DNA of 57,645 nt from Bacteroidaceae bacterium (GTDB lineage: Bacteria; Bacteroidota; Bacteroidia; Bacteroidales; Bacteroidaceae), in NCBI GenBank assembly GCA_024401215.1, contig JAKSLL010000015.1:1-57645 (forward strand), written 5' to 3'. A model generated the notes under the pieces. The model was not told where the DNA came from, searched no databases, and saw nothing but the letters and a program-made list of their open reading frames with translations. Of this stretch, positions 16,390-33,769 are shown in pieces (position 1 is the first letter of the stretch; every line of letters begins with the position of its first letter). The position numbers and the translations under genes were made by a program.

Positions 16390-18396
16390 TTATTTCAAAT
16401 CGTACTTTACTGTCAGTGACAGCTTTCGCGGTAATCTGTCACGTAATCCCTCAGATACGCCGTAGTATTCCTGCACGTATCTGGAGATGTCAAGGTACGA
16501 ACTGCGGAAGATGTTTTGGGCATTGAGTACGAAACTGAGTCCTAAGCGTGGGAAATTCTTCTGCACGGAACCGTCCATATTGAAGTCTGTAGTATAGAAT
16601 CTATCGTTGCGATTCGCACCCTTGCTGTGCCACTGTGCGTTGAGGCGGACAGTCCAGTTGCGTGGAAATTGCAACGTATTTTTGAACACCATCATGAGTA
16701 GAGGCTCTTTCAGAACGTCCTTTCCGTTTGCCAGAGGCATCGTAAACCACTGCTTATGCAAGTTGACATTCAGCATGGGGCTCCATATTCCTACCTTCGG
16801 CGACAGCATGATGGCATAATCCATGGCGCTATAATCATTGGCATTATACTGGTTAAGAGACGATGTTGTCGTACAAACAGGATTCTTATAGTGCATATAT
16901 GTGGCTGTGAGGTTCAGCCATTCATATTTCCACCCCAGCGTAGAGGCATTGGTGTACTCCGTCCAAAGCATCTTCATATTGAGAATCTCCAGTTCGCTGT
17001 ACCTCAGGCGTGTAAGACCGAGATAGGGGCGGATGCTGTTCTCTGTATGTTTCAGAGACAGTTCCGATTTGCCTATTTTCGTTGAAACCTTCAGCGATGG
17101 AAACAGACGGTCATTCGAAAACCTTACCTCGCGGTTCTTCATGAGTTCAGACACGAGGGCGTCCGTTTTCAGACTTCCTACCTCTCCCTTTGCCTGTATG
17201 TCATCAAGGTAAAGCATCAGACCGTCATCACTTAGTGGGCGATAGGCATGGCTGTTATGCTCGTAGCGGAGACCTGCCTCAATCGTCCATCTGCCAAAGG
17301 TCTGCATAGCACTGAAGAAAGCCGCAAGAGTATTATCAGGATGCTCAGCATGCGTGCTGAAGTATAATTGCTGCTGAGGGTTGTACGAGGGGTTGTCCTC
17401 ATACATCTTTAAGTCCATGTAGTCCAGTTCATGTTCCGCACCCACTGTCACGCTTCCTTGCCATAGTTTTCGGGAGGCTTTCAGGTAAGTTCGCGAGTCA
17501 AATTCCTTACGCAGGTAAAAGGTATTATAAGTTGGTCGCCATACGCTGAAATCAGGTCGGTCTATGAAACTGTTGTTAGCTATGGTGACGTTCCATTTTC
17601 CTATTTTCCCCTCATACTCCAATGCAAAATCATGGCGAGTGTCAGGATAACAAGACTTCGAAGACAGTTCCTCCTGCCATGTATCGTAGGTCGGTCTGTT
17701 GAGATATGAGTATCTGAACGACAACTTGTTGCTATGGTTGAAATCATAACGCAGGGAGAAACGTGCGGAAAACGATTTCGCTGTGACATCGGGATGTGAT
17801 GACTGCCTGACCTCATTGATGAGCTTATGATCCTCGTATTGGTTAATGAATATATTTCGCAGCCAATAGCTTCGGTCCTCATTCCATCCTGCGAAGCCAC
17901 CGAGCGTGAATCTTTTTCTTCGCCATCCCAGAGTAAGCTGCTCGTTGATGGAAAGGGCGTGTGTCTGGTCAAATCGTAAAACATTGGAGAGCGTGAAACC
18001 CTCTGCCTCACTCTTCTTGAGTCGTATCACGATGACGGACTCGACACCTTTGTCATACTCGACACCCGGATGACGTAACACTTCTATTTCCTTTACCCTG
18101 TCAGCACTTATCTGGTCAAGCTCCAAGAGTTCTTTCAGTTTGCGATTGTCAAGGTAGATGTCTGGCTTGCCACGGCCTATAAGGAAATAACCTTCTTCAG
18201 TGCAGACCAAACCCGGCAGTACCTCCATGATGTCTGCCACTGACTGAAGATGTTCCAATTCGGTACCTTCAACCTTCACCGTCAGGCTTCCAGTCTCATT
18301 GGTATCCTGAGCCAGAAGTGCACTGCTCTGTAGTATGAATAATAAGAGTATAATTATGGTTTTCCAGATTTTAATCCGATTCATTTCAAAACTCAT
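16390..18396 (-). CDS. Outer-membrane beta-barrel protein (TonB-receptor-like), last gene of the NRPS operon
   Basis: This 668-aa protein has a signal peptide (MNRIKIWKTIIILLLF to ALLAQ), then a short plug-like domain (about 35-130; SVADIMEVLPGLVCTEEGYF and GRGKPDIYLDNRKL resemble TonB-receptor plugs). The rest is a barrel of alternating aromatic strands (FRYSYLNRPTYDTW, LRYEHNSHAYRP, LNAQNIFRSSYLD) ending in LSLTVKYDLK. It lacks the N-terminal carboxypeptidase-like domain often present in OMP_b-brl_3 proteins. It starts 95 bp after the second NRPS gene on the same strand with no terminator between, so it may be the outer-membrane port or receptor for the peptide product; that link is an inference. 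MSFEM- or MNRIK- starts are both possible. Confidence 0.82.
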   Translation of the reverse strand: MSFEMNRIKIWKTIIILLLFILQSSALLAQDTNETGSLTVKVEGTELEHLQSVADIMEVLPGLVCTEEGYFLIGRGKPDIYLDNRKLKELLELDQISADRVKEIEVLRHPGVEYDKGVESVIVIRLKKSEAEGFTLSNVLRFDQTHALSINEQLTLGWRRKRFTLGGFAGWNEDRSYWLRNIFINQYEDHKLINEVRQSSHPDVTAKSFSARFSLRYDFNHSNKLSFRYSYLNRPTYDTWQEELSSKSCYPDTRHDFALEYEGKIGKWNVTIANNSFIDRPDFSVWRPTYNTFYLRKEFDSRTYLKASRKLWQGSVTVGAEHELDYMDLKMYEDNPSYNPQQQLYFSTHAEHPDNTLAAFFSAMQTFGRWTIEAGLRYEHNSHAYRPLSDDGLMLYLDDIQAKGEVGSLKTDALVSELMKNREVRFSNDRLFPSLKVSTKIGKSELSLKHTENSIRPYLGLTRLRYSELEILNMKMLWTEYTNASTLGWKYEWLNLTATYMHYKNPVCTTTSSLNQYNANDYSAMDYAIMLSPKVGIWSPMLNVNLHKQWFTMPLANGKDVLKEPLLMMVFKNTLQFPRNWTVRLNAQWHSKGANRNDRFYTTDFNMDGSVQKNFPRLGLSFVLNAQNIFRSSYLDISRYVQEYYGVSEGLRDRLPRKLSLTVKYDLK

Positions 18397-18491
18397 TTCG
18401 TGTTGATTGTCAATATGTTCTAATTGAAACAGTTTGCCTTATCTCACATCCTCAAAGAAGTCAAGTTTATACGTTTTAAAGGCGCAAAGGT

Positions 18492-32075: not shown

Positions 32076-32086
32076 ATTATGTTATA

Positions 32087-33769
32087 TTAGTTATTGCTTA
32101 TCATTATCGTAATCATATTCTGGTTAAAGCGGTAGTCGTACTTCATGTCGGTGCCGATGCCATTGACAATCTTCAGGCCAAAACCTTCGCCTTTATACTC
32201 CAGCGGATTGAATGGCTTGCCGTCATCATGTATCGATATGATGCTCTTGGTAGCACGAATATCTACATACTTGGCATGTCCATGGTCAATGATGTTCTTT
32301 AGCAATTCCTCGGCACAAAGCACATACTTGTTTGATGATTCTCTGGACAATCCTTGCGTCTGCAGGAAGGCAAGCATATCGTTGGTACTCTCGCCTAATG
32401 AAGCAATAGTGGTATCGATGGTCACATCATATACATCCTTATCTTCACCCCTTGGGATGAGGAATACAGGTGTTAGTGACTTGTCCTTGCTCCTTATCAC
32501 AGCAGTACATATCAGGATAACTACTGCCACTACTGCCTGTCCGAGGAAGAAACCTATCCAACCGCCCTGAAGCAGCCAGAAACCGAACATAGGCAACAGA
32601 GTCTGACCGAACGATAGGATTAAGGCGAGGTTCTTGTGTCCGTAGAACTGATACACAGGCACTAAGTTGCAGAGTAATGCATGCATGATGATGTTCAGCG
32701 AGAAGAGCGGAAGGGCTTTCATTATGATATTCAACGCTCCCTCGTTGGTAGCACCAAGAAGTGCTGATATCTGAGATGGGAAAACTACAAGCATAAGGGC
32801 AAATGCTGTCAGGCAGATAGCAAGGAAGATGTATGCTTTCTTGAGCAAAAACAGCATGCCTCGGTCATCGCCCAAGCCCTTCAGTATAGAACCTACAGGC
32901 TGAATGGTACGAAGTATTCCCGCCAAAATTATCATCGAGAATGCTAACAACTGTATGCACACGGCAAGGGCAATCAGACCATCATCACCAAGATAGGTAC
33001 TCGCTACATAGTTGTTGCTCACGAACTGTACCGACATCAACACGGTACTGATGAAAAGCGGAAAACCGTATGTTGCAATCTGCTTATAGTCGATGTCGCC
33101 AAATTTAGGTAAACTTAAACGCAGTGTTCCTTTCTTGCGGAAGTGTGGCAACACCATCAGTACGCATACTATATACATGATAAAAGTAGCCCACGCAGCA
33201 CCTGAAATGCCCCATCCGAAATACTTAATAAACAGGATGTCGCACAGAATATTGAAGATATTTCCCACAATCACAGCACGCGTTATAAGCTTTGGCGAAC
33301 CATCGACAGTAACGAACTGATGGAAAGTGTACATCAGCAACTGAGGAACAGAAGAAAGTACAGCTACGCGCAAGAAGTCGTTGGTCATCGGCCTAAGGGT
33401 GTCGGAATTGCATAGTATCTGTGACAGGGAGTCAAAACCTGCAATGCCTCCCACAACTAATGCTACGCCAAGCAATAATGATGTCAGCATAGAGAAAGTG
33501 AAGAGTTTATTAGCCTTTGTCTTGTCACCCTTGCCGATGGCAATGCCTACCATCATGGTGGTGCTTGAGATGTAGAAGACCGAAATAGCATAGATGGCCT
33601 GCAGCACAGGTTTGCTCAGGTTTACAGCAGCCAATGCCTCCGGACCGATGAGGTTTCCTACAATAGATGCATCGGCTATATTGGCAATCTGAGTGGCAGC
33701 AACGGTCAATATTGATGCTGTCAGGTAGTTCTTGAATGCCTCACCTATGAGGTATGAGTTTCTTTTCAT
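32087..33769 (-). CDS. MATE-family efflux transporter fused to a GHKL/RsbW-like ATPase domain
   Basis: 560 aa. Residues about 1-430 form the 12-helix MATE transporter (IANIADASIVGNLIGPEALAA near the start, a second repeat after about 230). Residues about 440-560 are an added HATPase_c_2-type domain: EELLKNIIDHG (N box), IHDDGKPFNP (G1 box) and GFGLKIVNGIGTDM (G2 box), as in anti-sigma kinases of the RsbW group. It is the first gene of the NRPS operon, 11 bp before the big NRPS, and is the obvious exporter of the product across the inner membrane. The cytoplasmic ATPase could couple transport to regulation by phosphorylating or binding a partner; that is inference. No STAS or sigma-factor partner gene is in the window. 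Confidence 0.92.
   Translation of the reverse strand: MKRNSYLIGEAFKNYLTASILTVAATQIANIADASIVGNLIGPEALAAVNLSKPVLQAIYAISVFYISSTTMMVGIAIGKGDKTKANKLFTFSMLTSLLLGVALVVGGIAGFDSLSQILCNSDTLRPMTNDFLRVAVLSSVPQLLMYTFHQFVTVDGSPKLITRAVIVGNIFNILCDILFIKYFGWGISGAAWATFIMYIVCVLMVLPHFRKKGTLRLSLPKFGDIDYKQIATYGFPLFISTVLMSVQFVSNNYVASTYLGDDGLIALAVCIQLLAFSMIILAGILRTIQPVGSILKGLGDDRGMLFLLKKAYIFLAICLTAFALMLVVFPSQISALLGATNEGALNIIMKALPLFSLNIIMHALLCNLVPVYQFYGHKNLALILSFGQTLLPMFGFWLLQGGWIGFFLGQAVVAVVILICTAVIRSKDKSLTPVFLIPRGEDKDVYDVTIDTTIASLGESTNDMLAFLQTQGLSRESSNKYVLCAEELLKNIIDHGHAKYVDIRATKSIISIHDDGKPFNPLEYKGEGFGLKIVNGIGTDMKYDYRFNQNMITIMISNN

Follow-up and report, generated by a model that had tools for sequence, protein, structure and literature searches.

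A Bacteroidaceae operon encodes a reductase-terminated nonribosomal peptide synthetase, a pump fused to a kinase-like domain and an unusual thioesterase protein

Positions 16,390 to 33,769 of a 57,645-nucleotide stretch of DNA from a Bacteroidaceae bacterium (GenBank assembly GCA_024401215.1, contig JAKSLL010000015.1; the whole stretch is hereinafter designated the window) contain four minus-strand genes in one run. The genes encode a 560-aa MATE transporter with a fused HATPase_c_2 domain (32087-33769), a 3509-aa nonribosomal peptide synthetase (NRPS; 21546-32075), a 1015-aa protein composed of adenylation, carrier, half condensation and thioesterase domains (A-T-halfC-TE; 18492-21539), and a 668-aa outer-membrane barrel protein (16390-18396; Pfam OMP_b-brl_3), with intergenic gaps of 11, 6 and 95 bp. 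Open reading frames, Pfam and motifs agree on this order, domain make-up and spacing, as given in a preliminary description of the locus. The operon of this gut bacterium is predicted to make a short peptide that leaves the enzyme by reduction, as an aldehyde or alcohol, and is exported by the kinase-like-fused pump; an acyl-capped tripeptide aldehyde is the probable product. Pathways of this kind are already known, but the fused pump and the unusual partner enzyme appear to be new variants.

The coding part of the NRPS (21549..32075) has the architecture C-A-T-C-A-T-C-A-T-R, where C, A, T and R are condensation, adenylation, carrier and reductase domains. Pfam detects three Condensation, three AMP-binding and three PP-binding domains and NAD_binding_4 (1.8e-30), and the signature residues of the C, A, T and R domains are intact across the enzyme. 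Specifically, C1 (30840..32057), C2 (27756..28973) and C3 (24642..25859) carry HHLVCDG, HHLIMDG and HHLISDG, respectively, and the carrier serine, read by eye, is present in T1-T3 as well as in T4 of the neighboring protein. The R domain (21549..22715) has GATGYLG and YTHSK at the GxTGxxG and YxxxK positions, consistent with the reductive release predicted in the preliminary description; the peptide should leave the enzyme with NAD(P)H as an aldehyde or alcohol. The codes of A1 (29319..30788), A2 (26196..27665) and A3 (23106..24578), read in GrsA numbering, are DLKNIGTVSK, DAMFSGGIFK and DVMFGGGCGK; position 4 depends on the alignment, and the codes serve here only to tell amino acids from other acids. 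Three amino-acid modules are present, in agreement with the three residues proposed earlier. The NRPS scores 1446.5 bits against the AusA equivalog model NF047350, below its cut-off of 2500, and is not a member of the AusA family by this measure. The phosphopantetheinyl transferase, expected outside the window, is represented by the only PF01648 match of the genome, a 201-aa open reading frame on contig C213.

In the A-T-halfC-TE protein, Pfam detects AMP-binding, PP-binding, Condensation (profile positions 2-156 of 456) and Thioesterase, corresponding to A4 (20211..21527), T4 (19980..20174), a half condensation domain (half-C; 19260..19949) and a thioesterase (TE; 18495..19229), all on the minus strand. 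The half-C has SSIILSM at the site of HHxxxDG; it is catalytically empty and lacks both the two-lobe organization and the motif of a condensation domain. The TE has a Cys nucleophile (GGWCYGG), which aligns with GGWCFGG of AB3403 (PDB 4zxh). A4 has the code VAQFMGCMVK, with Val at position 1 (V235), where A1-A3 carry the amino-acid-binding Asp, and with the proline of YGPTE replaced (YGSTE). Among the domains that passed a length and score filter, in which a few loci represent the same contig twice, Asp at position 1 and the YGPTE proline are kept in 53/53 NRPS A domains, whereas all 16 A domains of A-T-(halfC)-TE proteins have Val, Ile or a gap at position 1 and Ser or Met for the proline. 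Val at the first position has been read as a sign of an alpha-keto acid (PMC10316625; PMC5238615 Table 1). The solved A domain of StsA, which takes an alpha-keto acid, is described with an aliphatic residue at that position and Met for the proline (PMC11253843). A4 has both replacements and is therefore predicted to activate an acid lacking an alpha-amino group, the best candidate being an alpha-keto acid. A search of the PDB with A4 was unspecific, with linear gramicidin synthase first among 204 matches.

Among 45 genomes of the genus (own genome included), a full-length match to the A-T-halfC-TE protein is present only in the own genome. A search of 399 family genomes with the half-C-TE part yielded nine: the own genome, G351 and G218 (full-length, 47%), G235, G290 and G403, in which the match is confined to the TE of A-T-TE proteins, and three with weak matches. 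A third full relative is encoded in the genome of locus L108, a Prevotellaceae metagenome-assembled genome (MAG), with 56% identity over the half-C-TE part. The identity of the three relatives to the window protein is highest for the TE (58-71%), lower for the A domain (44-46%) and lowest for the half-C (31-36%). In the alignment of the four proteins, HHxxxDG is missing in 4/4, and the Cys motif and Val or Ile at position 235 are present in all. An assembly artefact as the origin of the half-C was considered and ruled out, as the three relatives share the architecture.

The domains of the cluster have their best matches in different genomes and loci: C1 in G403 (57%), A1 in G235 (72%), C2 in L117 (60%), A2 in L116 (80%), C3 and A3 in G351 (46% and 61%), R in L108 (53%) and the MATE pump in L097 (73%). 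In the tree of C domains, C3 joins the last C domains of L108, G351 and G218 (support 98/95). In the tree of R domains, those of the same four clusters form one clade (100/98), to which a long-branch warning applies. The last A domain has the code DV....GCGK in all four clusters with an A-T-halfC-TE protein. Because modules 1 and 2 are closest to a different lineage than C3, A3 and R, the cluster is, by these comparisons, a mosaic, in which the terminal module, the R domain and the A-T-halfC-TE protein move together and the front of the NRPS is exchanged.

C1 can be classed tentatively at best and lies outside the clade of starter-type C1 domains. Specifically, the starter-type C1 domains of bimodular relatives form one clade, and C1 of the window forms another with those of G235, G403, L109 and L117. 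In pairwise comparison, C1 scores on average 219 bits against 29 elongation C domains versus 105 bits against ten starter-type C1 domains. Searches of the PDB with C1, C2 and a starter C1 were weakly informative, with tyrocidine synthetase 3 first in all three. An A-T-(halfC)-TE gene lies directly downstream of the NRPS in four of the five clusters with this type of C1 (window, G235, G403 and L109), which favors loading in trans. In the fifth, L117, the NRPS is cut by the edge of the locus, and the genome gave no match. The N-terminal cap that the preliminary description held possible gains from this neighboring A domain for a non-amino acid and from a C1 that differs from the starter C domains in related clusters.

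The exporter consists of a MATE part (residues 1-430; 32480..33769, minus strand) and an RsbW/SpoIIAB-type, kinase-like HATPase_c_2 domain (residues 436-560; 32090..32464, minus strand; Pfam 1.1e-7, 32.3 bits versus a cut-off of 27.4). The MatE domain and the fold both identify the pump as a MATE transporter, so the operon does have its own exporter, as proposed, although that label misses the fused partner-switch-type domain. The fold search returned MATE and other MOP folds and no kinase fold, with the region after residue 444 barely covered. The fused domain can be aligned with stand-alone HATPase_c_2 proteins and has the N-box and ATP-site residues; E487, E488, N492, D515, D516 and G531 are invariant in 20/20 aligned sequences.

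A contig search with six MATE-HATPase sequences yielded 21 exporter loci (L097-L117), from which records of the own genome may have been left out; L097 and L099 belong to one genome, and several loci are the same contigs as genomes with a G designation and are hence not independent of them. Searched with profiles derived from the window, 16 of the 21 loci have a reductase-type NRPS, whole or cut short, next to the pump, and two more (L104 and L113) have other cluster genes there. Neither is found in L099, L111 and L112, of which the last two are contigs shorter than 5 kb. The flanks of at least 8/21 loci (L097, L098, L106, L107, L109, L112, L115 and L117) contain a STAS or SpoIIE gene; in L102, the contig of G235, such genes are separated from the pump by the NRPS. 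L109 carries on one strand genes for SpoIIE, STAS, MATE-HATPase, NRPS, A-T-TE, an S12-type hydrolase and a 420-aa C-like protein. The Ser of the [AS]S[AS]G motif is present in all 12 aligned STAS proteins. As some of its relatives sit beside STAS or SpoIIE genes, the fused domain appears to be a kinase of the partner-switching type.

In the own genome, SpoIIE is matched twice and STAS three times, and on contig C165 a STAS gene, a gene for a 137-aa HATPase_c_2 protein and a Cache-HAMP-SpoIIE gene are contiguous. These STAS and SpoIIE proteins could serve the fused domain in trans. Surprisingly, the exporter loci show a host bias: by record title, 18 of the 21 derive from horse MAGs, of which 11 are from horse faeces and 7 are Candidatus species with names or series pointing to horses, the rest being UBA1743, S28M_St and S33M_St. 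As a separate observation, the opposite strand beside the free-standing STAS/RsbW-like/Cache-HAMP-SpoIIE run of C165 (L088 9708-13026) carries a further STAS gene.

The barrel protein has only OMP_b-brl_3 above the Pfam cut-off when checked for plug and barrel domains, and a PDB sequence search gave no significant match. Its structure model has a mean pLDDT of 29.1 and was not used. A full-length homologue (44%) adjoins the reductase-NRPS cluster of G096, the next match is in G114 (32%), and a different type of barrel lies beside the clusters of G036, G018 and G042. The recurrence of the barrel in some relatives agrees with the outer-membrane protein proposed earlier; it may serve export or import. 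In G096, a gene for a phosphopantetheinyl transferase of Sfp length lies 2 bp after the bimodular reductase NRPS and is followed by the convergent barrel homologue (L054 13368-18946); the stretch continues with a Cache-SpoIIE gene and an AraC-type regulator.

Taken together, we propose, with a probability of roughly 45%, that the operon makes and secretes a reductively released peptide that is capped in trans. A4-T4 would load an acid without an alpha-amino group, an alpha-keto acid being the best candidate, and the acyl group on T4 would pass in trans to C1, which looks unlike a self-sufficient lipo-starter C domain. C1-C3 would then assemble an acyl-capped tripeptide, and the R domain would release it as an aldehyde (or alcohol). 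The Cys thioesterase may edit or transfer acyl groups, and the half-C may serve as a lobe for docking or spacing. The product would be expelled by the MATE pump, and the barrel would take the outer-membrane step. The partners of the kinase-like domain may be STAS and a SpoIIE phosphatase with a sensor, adjacent in some relatives and encoded elsewhere in this genome, and either export or a switch that reads export may answer a periplasmic signal. In a stronger version, which we rate as somewhat unlikely, the exporter is the output of the partner switch: a Cache-sensor SpoIIE and a STAS protein would control the MATE-fused domain, so that a periplasmic signal would decide on secretion of the reactive peptide once it has been made.

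Several observations weigh against this reading. McyG is described as activating Phe although it has Val at the first code position (PMC11253843), and V235 is no proof of a keto acid. An approximately unbiased (AU) test does not reject a tree that unites the C1 type of the window with the starter C1 domains (p-AU 0.43); because the tree is thus left undecided, the elongation-like call rests on similarity, and a clear phylogenetic assignment of C1 to the elongation domains was dropped, the initial split having parted only the starter clade from all else. G351 and G218 carry the A-T-halfC-TE protein with an NRPS that begins with A and offers no C1 as acyl acceptor, and L108 couples it with a starter-type C1. 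By itself, the kinase-like domain retrieved no significant match from the PDB by sequence (best E 0.22), no STAS or SpoIIE gene accompanies the kinase-like domain in the window, and G036, whose pump is the closest plain MATE among the exporter relatives, has a SpoIIE-STAS-barrel-NRPS-MATE run, which shows that a cluster can do without the kinase. Weaker matches to the barrel are present in 169/399 family genomes, the L108 genome has no barrel match at 1e-10, and the assigned role of the barrel derives from adjacency and one close relative.

Four other explanations were weighed; some concern different parts of the pathway, and their likelihoods are not mutually exclusive. The lack of a first C domain in G351 and G218 and the starter C1 of L108 prompt one in which the A-T-halfC-TE protein works on the C-terminal, released end, where the Cys thioesterase would put the A4 acid onto the product (an amine, alcohol or aldehyde-derived group) and no N-terminal cap would form. 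Consistent with this, the last C domain, last A code and R domain are of one type in 4/4 A-T-halfC-TE clusters while the first modules vary, the TE is the most conserved part of the protein, and the Cys TE of ObiF performs a non-hydrolytic release (PMC6668435). We nevertheless consider it rather doubtful: co-inheritance may merely reflect the position of the gene next to the 3' end of that for the NRPS, no enzyme known to be arranged in this way was found, and C1 of the window would be left without a donor. Alternatively, C1 alone could add a fatty acyl group to the first residue, with the A-T-halfC-TE protein an editing enzyme or relic. C domains of first modules are often linked to N-acylated peptides (PMC2812497), and the AU test allows C1 on the starter side, but the similarity of C1 to elongation domains and the intact, conserved TE and A motifs of its neighbor make this unlikely.

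It is very unlikely that the A-T-halfC-TE protein makes a separate second product by joining two alpha-keto acids in the manner of A-T-TE quinone and furanone synthetases. Although its layout and the Val at the head of its A code fit, and non-reducing NRPS-like enzymes are described as joining two aromatic alpha-keto acids via the TE (PMC9047271; PMC10316625), in 4/4 clusters the protein accompanies a reductase NRPS whose terminal module belongs to a single clade, an association that would be needless for an independent product, and the half-C would be unexplained. The remaining explanation concerns the pump: the HATPase domain would be no switch of transport, the partner-switch genes would only regulate expression of the cluster and the fusion would be incidental, in line with the plain MATE beside SpoIIE and STAS in G036 and with Leahy et al., who read similar neighbors as environment sensing and NRPS regulation (PMC2812497). 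The invariant N-box and ATP-site residues of the fused domain argue against an incidental fusion, and we regard this explanation as rather unlikely.

Gut NRPSs that release dipeptide aldehydes, including that for ruminopeptin of Ruminococcus bromii, were reportedly described by Guo et al. in 2017, and gut peptide aldehydes inhibit proteases. Similar to ruminopeptin-type NRPSs and AusA of Staphylococcus aureus, the window NRPS combines modules with reductive release; in contrast to them, it has three modules rather than two, and its cluster is a mosaic with an additional A-T-halfC-TE protein and a kinase-fused exporter. The tilivalline enzymes NpsA-ThdA-NpsB of a gut bacterium also rely on loading in trans, with stand-alone A and T proteins passing an acid to an NRPS that ends in a reductase; the differences are an aryl acid, a single C-A-T-R module and the lack of a TE. 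The A-T-halfC-TE protein shares the A-T-TE core and the Val at position 1 of its code, VAQFMGCMVK, with alpha-keto acid synthetases of the atromentin and polyporic acid types, to which ralfuranone synthetase also belongs. Such synthetases have no condensation domain, whereas the window protein has a half-C between T and TE, a Cys nucleophile and an adjoining reductase NRPS. ObiF likewise has a Cys thioesterase, with a GXCXG motif (PMC6668435), and AB3403 has GGWCFGG, but both proteins are built differently and contain a complete C domain. Dipeptide aldehydes from the gut, and the pyrazinones derived from them, are well documented, and some of the aldehydes are stabilized by an N-acyl tail (PMC8210680, PMC12327764). 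Pyrazinone formation, suggested in the preliminary description, is less likely here if the N-terminus is capped.

The closest precedent for the gene neighborhood is the mru0068 cluster of Methanobrevibacter ruminantium, in which a bimodular C-A-T-C-A-T NRPS lies beside a MATE gene, serine phosphatases and an anti-sigma factor antagonist, and for which Leahy et al. (2010) proposed sensing, regulation and export (PMC2812497). Both clusters combine an NRPS and a MATE pump, and the legend of Fig. S8 in that paper names a thioester reductase domain. The mru0068 cluster, however, is archaeal, the main text calls its terminal domain a thioesterase, and the passages on the cluster mention neither a kinase-MATE fusion nor an A-T-halfC-TE protein. 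The association of NRPS and partner-switch genes has thus been known since 2010, and the kinase-pump fusion is without report in the literature searched; titles and abstracts on partner switching in a limited library contained no kinase-like domain fused to a MATE. With the RsbW-RsbV-RsbU system the pump shares the HATPase_c_2 kinase-like domain, and some related clusters add a STAS protein with the conserved Ser and a PP2C-type SpoIIE, but the window domain is fused to a transporter and no partners are encoded in the window.

The contig belongs to the genus of its genome. Valyl-tRNA synthetase encoded on the window contig is 82-91% identical to that of 24/24 genus mates searched and at most 67% identical to those of other-family genomes (15 of 16 with a match), which rules out for this contig a foreign origin (bin contamination 7%); the relatives of the cluster also fit the Bacteroidales origin assumed earlier. 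Condensation matches occur in 19/45 genus genomes, and nine besides the own genome have a frame of 2279-2523 aa with two such matches. In seven of these nine bimodular genomes a SpoIIE match lies at most 2.5 kb from the first C match; G029 has no SpoIIE on that contig, and in G033 the locus is at a contig end. NRPS clusters are common in rumen Bacteroidaceae, with 934 clusters reported (PMC8241843). Titles and abstracts on gut, rumen and Bacteroidales NRPSs in a limited library gave no description of the present cluster, and the main text of the horse metagenome papers checked contained none of five biosynthetic-cluster terms.

Some further observations stand apart. L100-L106, L113 and L152 (downstream of L109) have A-T-TE clusters with a beta-lactamase-family (S12-type), lipoprotein-like protein, together with a 420-aa C-like protein with HAIFDG beside the pump, a prodrug-like set. 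An S12-type hydrolase with a pump recalls ClbP and ClbM of colibactin. In the window itself, a LytTR-domain gene precedes a gene for a 1483-aa DUF4011/helicase/REase_MTES_1575 protein, possibly a defence-type helicase-nuclease (10405-15451); genes for GH97, DUF6055 and L-PSP-domain proteins form one run (41003-45574), and an AAA_14/DUF4143 ATPase is encoded at 55100-56467.

If the fused domain does gate the pump, partner switching would target a transporter rather than a sigma factor, and the kinase-fused pump allows a direct test of partner-switch control over export. The A-T-halfC-TE protein together with one terminal module is a natural part-exchange unit for NRPS engineering and is a candidate for a new acyl-transfer step. 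Bacteroidales of large herbivores, here mostly horses, carry a diversified, recombining set of such pathways.

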